From NCBI GenBank assembly GCA_003577165.1, contig QEUM01000007.1, positions 1-64,000 of the forward strand: DNA of 64,000 nucleotides, in the 5' to 3' direction. Position numbers and translations under genes: made by a program. The notes beneath the pieces were generated by a model that worked only from the letters and a program-made list of their open reading frames with translations, was not told the origin of the DNA and did no database searches. Positions 14,199 to 21,317 of this stretch are shown here, piece by piece. Each line of letters opens with the position of its first letter. Position 1 is the stretch's first letter. The stretch comes from Armatimonadota bacterium (GTDB lineage Bacteria; Armatimonadota; Fimbriimonadia; Fimbriimonadales; ATM1).

Positions 14199-15890
14199 AT
14201 GCAAGCCGTAGCGAACGTGGTCGAGCAGTTGCTCCAGTCCTCGGGCCCAGTTGAAGTTCGGGCGCCGCGCGGCGCACAACTTCACTGCAAGGGCTGGATT
14301 CAGGAAGCGGCCCTGCGCATGCTTCTCAACAACCTCGATCCCGAAGTGGCCGAGCGCCCACAGGATCTCGTGGTCTACGGCGGCATCGGAAAAGCTGCGC
14401 GAAACTGGGACGCCCTTCGCGCGACGGTTCGAGCCCTCACCGAACTTGAGAACGACGAGACGCTATTAATGCAAAGCGGCAAGCCCGTGGGAATCCTCAG
14501 AAGTCACGAGAATGCGCCGCGCGTTCTGCTCGCCAACAGCAACCTCGTTCCGAAATGGGCGACATGGGAAGTGTTTCGGGAACTCGACAAGCGCGGTCTC
14601 ATCATGTTCGGTCAAATGACCGCAGGCAGTTGGATCTACATCGGCAGCCAGGGCATCCTGCAAGGCACGTACGAGACGTTTGCCGCCGTCGCGCGCAAGT
14701 CGTTCGGCGAGTCGCTTCGCGGAACGCTTACTGTCACTGCAGGGCTGGGCGGAATGGGGGGTGCTCAACCCCTCGCCGTAACGATGAACGAAGGCGTGGC
14801 TCTCTGCATCGAGGTAGACGAGAGACGAATCCAGAAGCGACTGGACACGAAGTACATTGACCGTTCGACCCACAGCGTTCGCGAAGCCCTCGAGTGGTGT
14901 TTGGATGCGAAGGAGAAGGGCGTTGCGCTGAGCGTGGCTCTTTGCGCAAACGCGGCCGACGTCCTCCCGGAGTTAATCGAATCCGGTGTAACGCCTGACG
15001 TGCTCACCGATCAGACCAGCGCGCACGACGTATTGAACGGCTATGTGCCCAGCGGGTTCTCCGTCGCGCAAGCCGAGGAATTGAGGAAGTCCGATCCGGC
15101 GAAGTATGTCGGTTTGGCGACGGAGTCCATCGTTAGCCACGTTCAAGCGATGTTGGAACTCCTCCGTCGCGGTTCTGTGACGTTCGACTATGGCAACAAC
15201 ATACGGCAGGTCGCCTTCGATGCCGGCGTTGCGGACGCGTTCGATTTCCCAGGTTTCGTGCCTGCGTACATCCGGCCTTTGTTCTGCGAAGGGAAGGGTC
15301 CGTTCCGTTGGGCCGCTCTCTCCGGTGATCCGGCGGACATCGCGGCGATAGACAATGAGGTCCTTTCGATCTTTCCGGATAACGAATCTCTGCGACGATG
15401 GATTCACATGGCCTCGGAGCGCGTTGCGTTTCAAGGTCTCCCGGCGCGCATCTGCTGGCTCGGCCTCGGCGAGCGGAAGGCGCTCGGCATCGCAATCAAC
15501 AACATGGTCGCAAGCGGGAAGGTCAGGGGGCCGGTCGTCATCGGACGGGATCACTTGGACACGGGATCCGTCGCCTCACCCAACCGTGAGACGGAAGCGA
15601 TGCGAGACGGAAGCGACGCCATTAGCGATTGGGTCTTCCTGAACGCGCTCATCAATGCCGTCAACGGCGCGTCATGGGTGTCGGTGCACCACGGAGGCGG
15701 CGTTGGGATGGGCTACTCGCAGCACGCGGGCATGGTCATCGTCGCTGACGGCACGCCCGAGGCTGCACAACGCCTCGGCCGAGTCCTCGACTCAGACCCC
15801 GGGATCGGCGTACTGAGGCACGCGGATGCGGGCTACGAGTCGGCCGTCGAAGCCGCGAAGCAGTACGGCCTCAGACGCCCGATGCCTTAG
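14199..15890 (+). CDS. hutU: Urocanate hydratase
   Basis: A 563-residue enzyme of typical length that uses tightly bound NAD+ to convert urocanate to imidazolone propionate in histidine degradation. Visible signatures include [18 protein letters not shown] (Rossmann-type glycine-rich segment), [20 protein letters not shown] and [18 protein letters not shown], with the conserved Cys in [11 protein letters not shown]. No hutH, hutI or hutG lies next to it, so it is separated from the rest of a hut pathway. It sits 38 bases after ruvB and may be read through from it. Confidence 0.96.
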
Positions 15891-15949: not shown

Positions 15950-17176
15950 ATGGATGGGAGCGCCCCTTACCGCTGGCTGTTCCTCGACCTGAACTCGTTC
16001 TTCGCTTCGGTCGAGCAGCAGGAGAACGCCGAACTGCGAGGCGTGCCCATCGCCGTCGTCCCAGTGGAGGCAGACTCCTCCTTCGTCATCGCCGCGAGTT
16101 ACGAGGCGAAGAGATACGGCGTCAAGACTGGCACTCGGATCGGGGACGCGAAGGCGATGTGCCCGAATTTGAGGCTCATCAAGGGCAATCACAAGGTCTA
16201 CGTCCGATATCACGACCGGATTCTGGAGGCCGTGGAGAGCGTCGCTCCGATCGACTCGGTCTGCTCCATCGACGAGTTGCGGGTCCGGCTGCTGAAGTCA
16301 GAGGCGAGTGAGGAGGCATCGCGGCAGGTCGCCCTGCGCATCAAGAGAGCGATTCGCGACGCGGTCGGGCCATGCCTCACGAGTTCGATCGGGCTGGCGC
16401 CCAACCCGTTCCTCGCCAAACTTGCGACTGAACTGCAGAAGCCGGACGGGCTCGTGCATCTCCTTCCCGAAGACCTGCCCGAACGCCTCTGCGGACTCAA
16501 GCTAACGGACCTTCCGGGCATCAATCGGAGGCTCGCCGTGCGACTGAACCTGGCGGGCATCTTCACCACAGCACACCTTCTCGCCGCTGATCAGCGGACC
16601 CTGCGTCGGGCGTTCGGAGGCGTGCTGGGCGCACGCTGGTGGCATCTGCTTCGGGGCCATGACATCCCGGACCCGGCCGGCCCTCGAAGGTCTTTGAGCA
16701 ACAGCCATGTGCTTCCGCCAGAGTTCAGGAGCCGGGACGGCGCGTACAAGGTCATGCTCCGCCTGATCGAGAAGGCCACGGCCCGGCTTAGGAGCGAGGG
16801 CCTCACCAGCCGGCGGGTGCACTACTCGATCCGATGCCGGTCGGGAGACTGGGAAGCGGAGGCGATCCTGCCCCCGACTTCGGACACCGTTCAGGTTTTC
16901 GAGGCGTTCAGGGACCTGTATCGCAAGGGGGTGATCGAAGCCCCCCATCAGGTGGCGGTCACCTTTAGCGACCTCACGCCCCGGGCAGAGGTCCCGCGAT
17001 CCCTCTTCGAGTCGAACGACTCCCGGGAGAGGCTGTGCCGCGCGATCGACGAAATCAACCGGAAATACGGGAAGCACACGGTGCTTCCGGCAGGTCTTGT
17101 GCAGGCAGAGCACACAGCCGAGGAGAGGATCGCGTTCTCGAAGACGAGCCTGTTCGACGAGGGCAGCGCGGCGTAA
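15950..17176 (+). CDS. dinB: Y-family DNA polymerase (DinB/UmuC type)
   Basis: A 408-residue translesion polymerase. The first metal ligand is in LFLDLNSFFASVEQ, and the catalytic acidic pair in CSIDELRVRL. The steric-gate region FFASVE and the fingers segment YEAKRYGVKTGTRIGDAK are present, as are the thumb helix-hairpin-helix (TDLPGINRRLAVRLNLAGIF) and a little-finger domain ending with LFDEG. It copies past damaged bases. The ATG lies five bases after a palindromic operator, so the mRNA may be leaderless and damage-inducible. DinB versus UmuC cannot be settled by eye. Confidence 0.88.
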   Translation: MDGSAPYRWLFLDLNSFFASVEQQENAELRGVPIAVVPVEADSSFVIAASYEAKRYGVKTGTRIGDAKAMCPNLRLIKGNHKVYVRYHDRILEAVESVAPIDSVCSIDELRVRLLKSEASEEASRQVALRIKRAIRDAVGPCLTSSIGLAPNPFLAKLATELQKPDGLVHLLPEDLPERLCGLKLTDLPGINRRLAVRLNLAGIFTTAHLLAADQRTLRRAFGGVLGARWWHLLRGHDIPDPAGPRRSLSNSHVLPPEFRSRDGAYKVMLRLIEKATARLRSEGLTSRRVHYSIRCRSGDWEAEAILPPTSDTVQVFEAFRDLYRKGVIEAPHQVAVTFSDLTPRAEVPRSLFESNDSRERLCRAIDEINRKYGKHTVLPAGLVQAEHTAEERIAFSKTSLFDEGSAA

Positions 17177-17265: not shown

Positions 17266-18603
17266 ATGGCCAAGGGCAACCATCAGCGGCTCGGAGAGCT
17301 GCTCGTCGATCAAGGGATCATTTCGAATCTGCAACTCGCTGTCGCGTTGGCAGCGCAGAAGACCCTGCAATGCCGGCTCGGCGAGGTCATCGTCGAACGC
17401 GGCTTCGCGGACGAAGAGCAGATCGCAAAGTGCTTAGCCGAGCAATACGGCTACGAGTACACGGACTTGCACGGACTTCAGCCGGAGTCTTCTGCTCTCG
17501 ACCTGGTGGACGCAGAGATCGCCGTCCAGGCGGAAATCCTGCCGGTCCAAGTCGAGTCTGGCGTACTCCACTGCGTGTCGGCTGATCCGCTCGACGTCTT
17601 GGCGACCGACGCGATTCGCCATGCATCGGGCGTGCGAATCGAGATGATGATTGCGCCGCGGTCTTCGCTCCTCTCCGCGATTCGCAGGTGGTATCGGTTG
17701 GATGCTGAAGGGGCTCCTCCCTCCGCCGCTGGAATGCGAACCCCCCCCGAAAGATTCAGCCGGGTGTGGCCGAGGTTCGCTACTGCAGACGGCATGTTGG
17801 CGGATGCATACGACAACACGCTCGGTCGCGAAGTCAGTCTGCTTTTCGGTCAGGCCCTGGCCGACGAGGGATCGGAGGCGTTCACGCGGATTCGTTCGTT
17901 CGCGGGCTGCAACGGCAGCGGGCTGCTCCGCATTTACGACTGGTTCGACTTCGAAGGCTGCGGGTGGGTGGTCATGGAGCCTGTTAGAGGCGAATCGGTT
18001 GCGAACATCGTGCGAACGCGAGGCAATCGCACTCCCGCACAAGCCGCTGCAATCGTTTCGCAACTTGCGGTGGGCGTCGATCAACTTGTGCAAGCCGGCC
18101 AAGGCGCGACGGTCATCGGTCCGGAGAACGTGCTAGTGGGCCGAGGCGGAGTGTGTTGCATCGCGCCTTTGGAAGCGATCGGATCCGAGTTTCGACTGCC
18201 GCCCGGAGTCGCGACCAATCACGAACTGTCCGAACACGTGTACGCTCTCGGTGCTCTCCTGCATTTTCTGCTGACTGGCCGCGCTCCGGCGAAGGCCTCG
18301 GCTCACATGCCGACGGAAGCGGCGCTATCGGGTCTGTTCGAATCGGAGGGCATTTGGATACCGTCCGCGATGGTCGAGATCCTGTTCCGCTGTCTATGCG
18401 CCGATCCGCCAGTTGGCTACTCCTCGACCCTGCAACTCAAACTCGCGCTTGAGTCTTGTTCGTGGCGTTGCGCGACGACGCAGGTCACGAGTCCGGCAGA
18501 AGTCGGTCGGGACCGCGAGCAACTGCTCGATAGCCTTGAAGAGGGGCCAGCGACTGCACGGCGCAGAGGTTTCCTGAGTTTTCTATTTCGTAAGAGCGCA
18601 TAG
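17266..18603 (+). CDS. MshEN domain fused to protein kinase-like (pseudokinase) domain
   Basis: A 445-residue protein. Residues 1-145 are a GspE N-terminal (MshEN) pattern (RLGELLVDQGIISNLQLAVA, then EQIAKCLAEQYGYEYTDL), a fold that can bind cyclic di-GMP. Residues of about 160-405 resemble a serine/threonine kinase fold: a hinge-like GWVVMEPVRGESV, a catalytic-loop equivalent VIGPENVLVGRGGV where HRDxKxxN is expected, and no DFG (APLEAIG in its place). The catalytic Asp and Mg-binding Asp are therefore absent, so it is most likely a pseudokinase. Next downstream is a FlhG/MinD-like ATPase, suggesting a motility or surface-structure context. The function is unknown. Confidence 0.65.
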   Translation: MAKGNHQRLGELLVDQGIISNLQLAVALAAQKTLQCRLGEVIVERGFADEEQIAKCLAEQYGYEYTDLHGLQPESSALDLVDAEIAVQAEILPVQVESGVLHCVSADPLDVLATDAIRHASGVRIEMMIAPRSSLLSAIRRWYRLDAEGAPPSAAGMRTPPERFSRVWPRFATADGMLADAYDNTLGREVSLLFGQALADEGSEAFTRIRSFAGCNGSGLLRIYDWFDFEGCGWVVMEPVRGESVANIVRTRGNRTPAQAAAIVSQLAVGVDQLVQAGQGATVIGPENVLVGRGGVCCIAPLEAIGSEFRLPPGVATNHELSEHVYALGALLHFLLTGRAPAKASAHMPTEAALSGLFESEGIWIPSAMVEILFRCLCADPPVGYSSTLQLKLALESCSWRCATTQVTSPAEVGRDREQLLDSLEEGPATARRRGFLSFLFRKSA

Positions 18604-18639: not shown

Positions 18640-19452
18640 ATGAAGAGCATCGCCATCACAAGCGGCAAGGGTGGGGTCGGAAAGACAAACCTGTCCGCAA
18701 ATCTCGGAATCGCGCTTTCGCAACTCGGCAGACGTGTGACCGTCTTCGACGCAGACCTCGGCCTGGCCAACCTCGACGTCGTGCTCGGGGCGCGTGCGCC
18801 TTACACGCTGCAGCATGTGCTTTCTGGGGAGAAGCAGCTGTCGGAAATCGTCATGAGCGGGCCTGGCGGCATTGGGCTGGTTGCAGGCGGTTCAGGTGTG
18901 GAGGCGCTCGTCAACATGAACGGTCCTCAGTTGGATCGGTTCTTGACGGCGATCGCCGGACTTGCCGACGATTGCGACCTGCTCATCTTCGACACAGGCG
19001 CCGGAGTTGACGACGCGGTCATGGCGTTCTGCGAAGCCGCAGATGAGGTCGTTCTGATTGCGACTCCCGACCCGACGAGCGTCGTGGACGCCTACGCTGC
19101 CGCAAAGACACTTTGGTGTCGGAAGCCGAATGCAAAGATCCAACTCGTCATGAATATGGCGGAGTCTGCCGCTCAGGCCGAGCAAGTCGCAAACCGGTTG
19201 ATGGGCATCTGCCAACAGTTTCTGAACAAAGCGCCAACATACTTCGGATTCGTGCGGCATGATTCGAAGGCGATTCAGTGCATTCGAACCAGGAAGCCCT
19301 TCTTGTTGGCCGCTCCAACGAGCATGGCCGCAAGCGACGTTCGCGCTCTCGCCAAATCGCTTCTTACGTCCGAACCGGCGCGCAAAGAACCGACGTCTTT
19401 CCTCGATCGGCTGCGGAGCGTTTTCGGCGGGCAGCTGAAGGAATCAGCCTAA
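18640..19452 (+). CDS. flhG: MinD/ParA-family ATPase, FlhG-like
   Basis: A 270-residue ATPase with the deviant Walker A SGKGGVGKTNLSANLG at the N-terminus, switch region DADLGLANLDVVLG and Walker B-like LLIFDTGAGVDDAVM. This spelling (FDADLGLANLDV) is characteristic of FlhG/YlxH, which sets flagellar number and position, more than of MinD. A flagellin (55246) and a FliA-type sigma (26745) in the same window support a flagellar role. It converges with divIVA, overlapping by nine bases. Confidence 0.75.
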   Translation: MKSIAITSGKGGVGKTNLSANLGIALSQLGRRVTVFDADLGLANLDVVLGARAPYTLQHVLSGEKQLSEIVMSGPGGIGLVAGGSGVEALVNMNGPQLDRFLTAIAGLADDCDLLIFDTGAGVDDAVMAFCEAADEVVLIATPDPTSVVDAYAAAKTLWCRKPNAKIQLVMNMAESAAQAEQVANRLMGICQQFLNKAPTYFGFVRHDSKAIQCIRTRKPFLLAAPTSMAASDVRALAKSLLTSEPARKEPTSFLDRLRSVFGGQLKESA

Positions 19453-19995
19453 GAAGGGGTCGCGCGTTTCGCTCAACTTGCGTTGGAAAGACAACGACAG
19501 CTGCCTTGCGGATTCCAGGAAGTCATGGAATTCGCGCTTCGTGCGTTCGTACCTTTCGTTGAGTTCCTGCTGCCGCTCGCGCATTTCCGTGTAGATGGTC
19601 TCGACTCGGCGCTCTGCGTCGAGAACTAACTGTTTCGACTTCTGTTCCGCCTCTTCGATCATCTTCGTCGCGGCATCATGGGCCGCGCGGAGGATGTCAT
19701 CCGTGGAAGTCGCCGATCGCCGCAGTTCGTTGAGTTCCATCTGCGTCTTGTGGGCCTCAGTGTGCGCGGACTCAAGGGCCGCCTCCAAAGCGGCGACCTT
19801 GTCTTGGAGAATCGCTCGCTCTTCCTTAAGGGCAGCCAACTCGGCGTTCAAGCCATCACGCTCGGCCCTGAGTATCTTCAGGTCCGTGCGCAGCTGATCG
19901 AATTCCTTCGCGCTGTCTCGAAGGAATTCGTCTACGTCCTCCGGCGAGTAGCCCCGGAAGGCGCGTCTGAAATTGGGTGTCCCACTATCTGGCAT
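19444..19995 (-). CDS. divIVA: DivIVA-domain protein
   Basis: A 183-residue protein whose N-terminal FRRAFRGYSPEDVDEFLRD is the DivIVA membrane-curvature segment, followed by a long coiled coil (ERDGLNAELAALKEERAILQ onward). ATG 19995 is preferred because the N-terminal extension to 20139 does not resemble the family. DivIVA localises to poles or septa and recruits division or polar factors. It is the last gene of the minus-strand run that starts at the Fur-family gene. A short N-terminal MPDSGTPN precedes the domain. Confidence 0.85.
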   Translation of the reverse strand: MPDSGTPNFRRAFRGYSPEDVDEFLRDSAKEFDQLRTDLKILRAERDGLNAELAALKEERAILQDKVAALEAALESAHTEAHKTQMELNELRRSATSTDDILRAAHDAATKMIEEAEQKSKQLVLDAERRVETIYTEMRERQQELNERYERTKREFHDFLESARQLSLSFQRKLSETRDPFLG

Positions 19996-20114
19996 GGCTG
20001 CACCTTGGATCGTGTACTTGTCCTTCGCCGCTTGCAGGGAAGGGGGCAGAATGCATGCCAATGCGGCGTGGGGTGCGGCACAGTCCGGCGAAATTGCTGG
20101 GGAGTCTTGAAGCG

Positions 20115-21317
20115 TCAGACATATTCCGACGCGAACCACAGCCTCGCCTCCCGGTCTGCTGCGAGCACGGAATCAAGCGTTGCTTCGCCGACCGGGTGCT
20201 TCGCGAGCGATCTTTCGCACGCCCGTTGGATGTCGAGAAAGCGAATCCGTCCGCGTAAAAATGCGTGAACGGCCTCTTCATTGACAGCGTTGAGAAATGC
20301 GGGGCTCGTTCCGCCCTGGATGAACGCCGCCCGAGCCAGCGAAGGACAGATGAACACCGACTCATCGTAGGGCTCGAATGTCAAGGAGGGCGTGTGGTTC
20401 GGTTCCCAAGGTTTTGCCGGGGAGGGCATTCGAGCCGGCGCGGTCAGTGCGAACTGGATCGGCAGTTTCATGTCCGGATGGCCCATCTGCGCCAAGATGC
20501 TTCCGTCTCGGAACTTGATCATCGAATGGATCACGCTCTGCGGATGAACTGCGATCTGGACAACGTCTGGGCTCACGTCATACAGCCAGCAGGCTTCGAT
20601 TAACTCGAGGCCTTTGTTCATGAGGGTGGCCGAGTCGATCGTGATCTTGCCGCCCATTCGCCACGTCGGATGATTCAGCGCCTGATCCACCGACACGGTT
20701 TCCAATTCGGCCAGTGTCCAGTTTCGGAACGGCCCACCACTCGAAGTGATGTAAATGCGCTCGACGCCTTCAGCGAGGTTTCCGCCGCGAGGAACGGACG
20801 ACGTGAGGCTCGGAGAGCCGAGGAGACATTGCAGGATCGCCGAGTGCTCGGAGTCAATCGGCAAGAGTGTGCCCCTTCCCGATCGCACGCGGGGCATGAC
20901 GATCGCCCCCCCGGAGACTAGAACCTCTTTGCTAGCGAGGGCGATGTGCTTCCCGGCGTCGAGAGCGGCAAGAGTCGGCAGAAGGCCGACCACTCCGTTC
21001 ACGCAGACGACCACGATGTCGATGTCGTCGGACGCTGCGACTTCTGTCGCGGCATCGATTCCTGAGTCAACGCGAATACCGAGTTTTGATGCGAGACTTC
21101 GGGCGGCATCTTCCTCGAACATCGCGACGCGACTGGGCCGAAACTCCTCGACCTGCGCTCCCAGGAGTTCCACGTTGGAGTTGGCCGTCAACGCGGCAAC
21201 CTCGAAGCGTTCGGAGTGCATCCGCAACACTTCAAGCGTTTGCTTTCCGATCGACCCGGTTGATCCGAGGACTGCGACCCGCTTCTTCTGCGTCTGTGCC
21301 GTTGCGGCGCTGCTCAC
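20115..21317 (-). CDS. dxr: 1-deoxy-D-xylulose 5-phosphate reductoisomerase
   Basis: The NADPH-dependent enzyme of the MEP isoprenoid pathway. It shows the nucleotide-binding KRVAVLGSTGSIGKQTLEVL, the SKEVLVSGG segment, the metal-binding PIDSEHSAI motif and the catalytic-loop region TSSGGPFRNW. The C-terminal EEAVHAFLRGRIRFLDIQRA matches the Dxr helical domain. GTG 21317 is preferred as the start: it begins one base after the glutamate dehydrogenase stop, suggesting translational coupling. ATG 21350, overlapping that gene, is the alternative. Confidence 0.93.
   Translation of the reverse strand: MSSAATAQTQKKRVAVLGSTGSIGKQTLEVLRMHSERFEVAALTANSNVELLGAQVEEFRPSRVAMFEEDAARSLASKLGIRVDSGIDAATEVAASDDIDIVVVCVNGVVGLLPTLAALDAGKHIALASKEVLVSGGAIVMPRVRSGRGTLLPIDSEHSAILQCLLGSPSLTSSVPRGGNLAEGVERIYITSSGGPFRNWTLAELETVSVDQALNHPTWRMGGKITIDSATLMNKGLELIEACWLYDVSPDVVQIAVHPQSVIHSMIKFRDGSILAQMGHPDMKLPIQFALTAPARMPSPAKPWEPNHTPSLTFEPYDESVFICPSLARAAFIQGGTSPAFLNAVNEEAVHAFLRGRIRFLDIQRACERSLAKHPVGEATLDSVLAADREARLWFASEYV

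Follow-up and report, generated by a model that had tools for sequence, protein, structure and literature searches.

A conserved MshEN-pseudokinase fusion encoded beside an FlhG-type ATPase in Fimbriimonadales: a candidate link between c-di-GMP and flagellation

The window analysed here is a stretch of 64,000 nucleotides from an Armatimonadota bacterium of the order Fimbriimonadales (assembly GCA_003577165.1, contig QEUM01000007.1, positions 1 to 64,000). At 17266..18603 on the forward strand it carries a gene for an MshEN domain joined to a kinase-like domain, 445 amino acids plus the stop codon, delimited by its open reading frame, by Pfam and NCBIfam matches and by homologues; a GGAGG lies directly 5′ of the ATG start. 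The next gene (18640..19452, +) encodes an ATPase of the FlhG/FleN type of 270 amino acids, in which the deviant Walker A motif KGGVGKT and the motifs DADLG and DTGAG are intact, and convergent with it lies a DivIVA-like coiled-coil gene (19444..20139, −; Pfam DivIVA, E=2.4e-13). On the other side, a urocanase-like gene (14199-15890) and a Y-family DNA polymerase gene (15950-17176) sit between ruvAB and the pair, and their position next to it is not conserved elsewhere.

A preliminary description of this DNA had recognised in the N-terminal part a GspE/PilB-type MshEN domain, known to sense cyclic di-GMP. Profile searches agree, with the 53-residue c-di-GMP motif of MshEN_N at residues 8-60 (17287..17445, +; NCBIfam, E=2.6e-16) and the MshEN_C subdomain at residues 61-146 (17446..17703, +; Pfam PF05157, E=1.9e-18). 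The best solved relatives of this part are PilF/PilB and MshE, and in Foldseek the structure of MshE with c-di-GMP (5htl) matches the model with a target TM of 0.87, an rmsd of 2.0 and 33% identity. The consensus of Wang et al. 2016 (PMC5013675), RLGxx(LVI)(LVI)xxG(LVI)(LVI)xxxxLxxxLxxQ, occurring twice with a five-residue spacer, is found in the window protein as RLGxxLVxxGIIxxxxLxxxLxxQ, a linker of five amino acids and RLGxxIVxxGFAxxxxIxxxLxxQ. Residue by residue, the two 24-residue copies occupy positions 8-31 and 37-60, with the linker at 32-36, and the only deviations are F47, A48 and I53. The contacts with c-di-GMP defined in the same study, proposed earlier as a check, are kept at R8, L9, G10, L24, L28 and Q31 of the first copy and at R37, L38, G39, I53, L57 and Q60 of the second, I53 being the sole departing contact position and a conservative change. 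The domain is apparently intact and is a predicted c-di-GMP receptor. Furthermore, both motif glutamines are kept in 14/14 long forms, conservation within the family is highest in MshEN_N (64% mean pairwise identity vs 32-36% in the kinase lobes), and the same genome encodes five GGDEF domains. A GspE/PilB identity for the whole protein was rejected, given that it has no match to the T2SSE ATPase and that its C-terminal half has a kinase fold.

That second half (residues ~160-401; 17743..18468, +) was delimited by AlphaFold2 and Foldseek and by homologues that match Pkinase. In the window copy the Pfam Pkinase match is weak (E=4e-4, below the cut-off), and eight of the 14 long-form homologues match it, the best with E=1.4e-15. 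The AlphaFold2 model, built from a shallow alignment of eight family members, has a mean pLDDT of 77, with residues 160-400 mostly at 80-92; its pTM of 0.57 and the shallow alignment mean that it says nothing reliable on the relative placement of the MshEN and kinase domains. When the model was compared with the PDB by Foldseek, bacterial Ser/Thr kinases ranked first (PknE, E=4e-12, target TM 0.70; PknB; Stk1). By predicted fold and by homology the C-terminal part belongs to the protein kinase superfamily, so that the pseudokinase proposal of the preliminary description, which would have fallen had this part not folded as a kinase, stands.

The same description had read the aspartates of the catalytic loop and of the DFG motif as replaced, and both changes lie where it placed them: VIGPEN (283-288; 18112..18129, +) replaces HRDLKPEN, the HRD aspartate becoming Val283 while Asn288 is kept, and APL (300-302; 18163..18171, +) replaces the ADF of the DFG region, the aspartate becoming Pro301. 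In addition, VSLL (190-193; 17833..17844, +) replaces the VA(I/L)K of strand beta3, with loss of the ATP-binding lysine (Leu193). The three catalytic residues are absent from 14/14 long forms (the window protein and 13 others), and the assignment as an active Ser/Thr kinase failed on this ground; Asn288 of the catalytic loop and Pro301 at the position of the DFG aspartate are invariant across the 14. Pseudokinases in which all three catalytic motifs are lost nearly always lack ATP binding (PMC12599244). A degenerate single copy or pseudogene was rejected because the 13 homologues share identical catalytic losses. Judged by sequence, this is a conserved and maintained pseudokinase and not one decaying copy, since its members, at 30-47% identity to the window protein, show the same losses and most of them retain structural landmarks of the C-lobe such as SDVFALGTLL.

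The full-length fusion is present in 13 other genomes of the Fimbriimonadales (Armatimonadota), with E-values from 7e-108 to 8e-49, and is therefore not a chance finding; a scan of genome contigs with the single sequence gave no match, and an alignment-based scan gave seven relatives. One contig that carries the fusion (L037, JADZEW010000035.1) is titled as a Methanoregulaceae archaeon, a title that is probably wrong. Many related genomes encode MshEN-only proteins of about 200 amino acids. In many of these short forms the first motif glutamine (Gln31, in motif I) is K, R or A, and in many the position of Leu38 is F; with Gln31 lost there, binding of c-di-GMP may be dispensable in some members. 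The fusion ends in a tail with the short conserved motif DREQLL (416-421; 18511..18528, +), and a DRxxLL motif likewise lies near the ends of the MshEN-only short forms. Beyond it, the basic and aromatic C-terminal end RRGFLSFLFRKSA (18562..18600, +), FW+RLFGRR in relatives, resembles the membrane-targeting end of MinD-type proteins, a resemblance only; the hydrophobic moment of the last residues is not above the family background, and membrane targeting by this C-terminus is kept as no more than a lead.

The partner ATPase is, by sequence and ancestry, FlhG/FleN rather than MinD, as the preliminary description had supposed in calling it FlhG-like. Among solved structures it comes closest to FleN (E=1.5e-51) and FlhG (4rz2, 5e-49), well ahead of archaeal MinD (3e-34); homologues elsewhere in the phylum directly follow flhA and an SRP-type GTPase gene, i.e., the flhA-flhF-flhG order, and in the tree the ATPases of the Fimbriimonadales form a supported group (99/96) among these operon homologues. 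The nodes between partners of long forms and partners of short forms are weak, so that the tree does not tell whether the pseudokinase was gained or lost. The window ATPase, the only hit at E<=1e-12 in its genome, ends in FLDRLRSVFGG, which resembles a membrane-targeting end. As a trend, a C-terminal helix of this MinD-like kind is lacking in the partners of the main short-form clade (L128-L136 and L140) and is retained in those of long forms (L116-L127).

A search for the same fusion and its neighbours, another of the checks proposed earlier, found the fusion again with the same FlhG neighbour. Besides the window, 29 loci spread over 26 genomes and four families have an MshEN gene immediately followed by an FlhG-like gene on the same strand. 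The order holds for long and short MshEN forms while the other flanking genes vary, and the spacing ranges from an overlap to 34 nt, larger negative gaps being an artefact of over-long ORF starts. The pseudokinase is not essential to the pairing, since the short forms lack it. No comparable pair was found among 73 MshEN loci of other phyla, a sample that leans to PilB. Additional associations exist. Genome G176 has a second pair, likewise of an MshEN-pseudokinase (with YKALSPSN) and an FlhG; in G121 an FlhG paralogue of 383 amino acids (L170:5145-6293) is fused to an MshEN_C subdomain and ends in WFKRLFARDAA; and in G208, outside the order, an MshEN-pseudokinase and an FlhG lie in the opposite gene order with a 239-nt gap. 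The G208 protein (714 aa) comprises an MshEN domain, a kinase fold in which HGAVRPDN replaces HRDLKPEN, and a hydrophobic, transmembrane-like stretch. This genome has three FlhG paralogues (L137, L157, L158), one in the flagellar operon, one beside the MshEN-pseudokinase and one separate from both.

The setting of the pair is flagellar. Of the 88 good-quality genomes in the order, 79 have FliP, and 45 of these carry an FlhG homologue that is strong (E<=1e-40), vs 0 of the 9 that lack FliP (Fisher p=0.001, without correction for kinship). A single genus accounts for eight of these nine, and the co-occurrence rests mostly on genus g12, not on many independent events. A pairing independent of flagella had been suggested by three genomes (G107, G128, G102) that bear the pair but in which no FlhA turned up; it was rejected as FliP is present in all three. 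The flagellar locus of the window's own genome reads fliF, fliG, fliH, fliI, flhA and then a sigma factor; flhF and flhG are absent from it, the sigma factor standing where they could be expected, and this genome lacks the common, though not universal, arrangement of flhG beside flhF in a flagellar operon. FlhF is missing from most carriers of the MshEN-FlhG pair; it exceeds the cut-off only in family f3 and in G177, and the TIGR03499 match of the window's own genome lies below it.

The sensor motif, the dead kinase fold, the conserved pairing and the flagellar setting are thus what sequence and structure prediction support, and it is probable, if by no means assured, that the fusion is a c-di-GMP receptor with a catalytically dead Ser/Thr-kinase-fold output whose client is the FlhG encoded immediately downstream. 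From these observations we infer that the fusion would bind FlhG directly and that c-di-GMP would control this binding. The adjoining gene for FlhG, the ATPase that determines how many flagella form and where, suggests a direct c-di-GMP route to flagellum building. In such a route, c-di-GMP binding would change the MshEN domain, the pseudokinase and a DRDxLL tail would serve as the FlhG-binding scaffold, and dimerisation, ATPase activity or membrane cycling of FlhG would be altered in a c-di-GMP-dependent manner. The number or placement of flagella would change through FlhG, probably as a restraint at high c-di-GMP, and in most carriers the fusion-FlhG pair would take the place of the usual FlhF-FlhG partnership. 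The full version of this proposal, in which the pseudokinase is a scaffold gated by c-di-GMP that makes direct contact with FlhG, replaces FlhF and sets flagellum number or position via the ATPase and membrane cycle of FlhG and not via transcription, is put forward tentatively, as a possibility less likely than not.

Known systems offer partial parallels. Ser/Thr protein kinase was listed, and not studied, among the partner domains of MshEN by Wang et al. 2016 (PMC5013675); the fusions share an MshEN receptor joined to a kinase-type domain, whereas in the present family every member has a dead kinase and the pairing is with FlhG. An FlhG/FleN ATPase is also at work in the control of flagellar number by FlhF-FlhG and FleQ-FleN (PMC10723142, PMC7226244), and in Pseudomonas the c-di-GMP input to FleN control comes via its partner FleQ (PMC10723142, PMC7226244). 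Unlike in FleQ-FleN, the partner is here an MshEN-pseudokinase and not an enhancer-binding protein, and unlike in FlhF-FlhG, FlhF is mostly missing and flhG lies outside the flagellar operon. In the cellulose secretion system BcsE-BcsR-BcsQ of E. coli, a c-di-GMP sensor with a dead enzyme domain binds and recruits a MinD-family ATPase (PMC7439463), though its domains are unrelated (degenerate REC-GGDEF) and its output is another, so that it makes an analogy and not a family. For the proposed mechanism, both BcsE-BcsQ and FleQ-FleN are analogies. Moreover, the bacterial pseudokinases ActPs1-3, GLW, CP1 and MviN have likewise lost all three catalytic motifs, and a scaffold role has been proposed for bacterial Ser/Thr pseudokinases (PMC12599244); in contrast to them, the present family has its own CPxN and APF/APL motifs, and the Fimbriimonadales form has no obvious transmembrane segment. 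The 2025 review of bacterial pseudokinases makes no mention of MshEN, GspE or c-di-GMP (PMC12599244). MshEN-kinase fusions are known already; no report of the pairing of MshEN with FlhG was found in open-access papers.

Among other explanations, the one that survives best, while still unlikely, is that the pair controls placement or assembly of type IV pili, with an MshEN domain borrowed from PilB and an FlhG-like ATPase that positions the pilus machine. MshEN is typical of PilB, MinD-like ATPases are able to place other machines, type IV pilus genes are present in the same genomes as the pair, and the window's own genome encodes another four MshEN proteins, of which two have the length expected of PilB (about 600 amino acids). 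However, the partner is an FlhG by sequence and ancestry, all good-quality genomes that have a strong FlhG homologue also have flagellar export genes, and the C-terminal half of the fusion is no pilus ATPase. The preliminary description had left flagellar and pilus placement side by side; its flagellar half is supported, as the neighbour tracks flagella, and its pilus half finds no positive support.

A link of c-di-GMP to cell division or polarity, with FlhG as a substitute for MinD acting together with the DivIVA-like protein, seems improbable. A convergent DivIVA-like gene adjoins the pair at five loci, the window and L117, L120, L121 and L125, but such a neighbour was not detected at most pair loci. 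MinC is the usual effector of MinD, and no MinC_C match above the cut-off was found in 113 genomes of the order, for which reason a Min system was rejected; in addition, the flagella-less genomes divide without a strong homologue of the ATPase.

It is equally improbable that the two genes share an operon as a matter of convenience, their products not interacting directly, and that the fusion acts on another flagellar or surface protein. Operon neighbours do not have to bind each other, and G100 and G133 retain FlhG without a recognisable adjoining MshEN gene; yet the pair is conserved at its 29 further loci in four families despite changing flanks, and the separate pairings and the MshEN_C-FlhG fusion described above argue likewise. 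In G133, a genome of 1.5 Mb, a lysine/serine-rich protein of 443 amino acids without a Pfam match (L148:5742-7070) precedes FlhG in place of MshEN. Lastly, a kinase fold still alive, capable of c-di-GMP-gated phosphotransfer, AMPylation or nucleotide binding via unusual residues with FlhG as the substrate, could appeal to the invariant Asn288 and to the atypical activities that exist among some pseudokinase folds, but is very hard to credit with the beta3 lysine and the HRD and DFG aspartates replaced in every member.

A c-di-GMP receptor with a pseudokinase output and FlhG as its client would give a bacterial pseudokinase family a concrete candidate client and input. The pair constitutes a compact two-gene module, spread over a flagellated order, that lends itself to tests of ligand binding, of protein interaction and of flagellation, and it bears on two questions, how FlhG functions when FlhF is absent and whether FlhG is a direct target of c-di-GMP. 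As to family f3, most of its genomes (G158-G175) carry FlhA and FlhF without an FlhG homologue at E<=1e-12, a pattern that is the reverse of that of the window's family.
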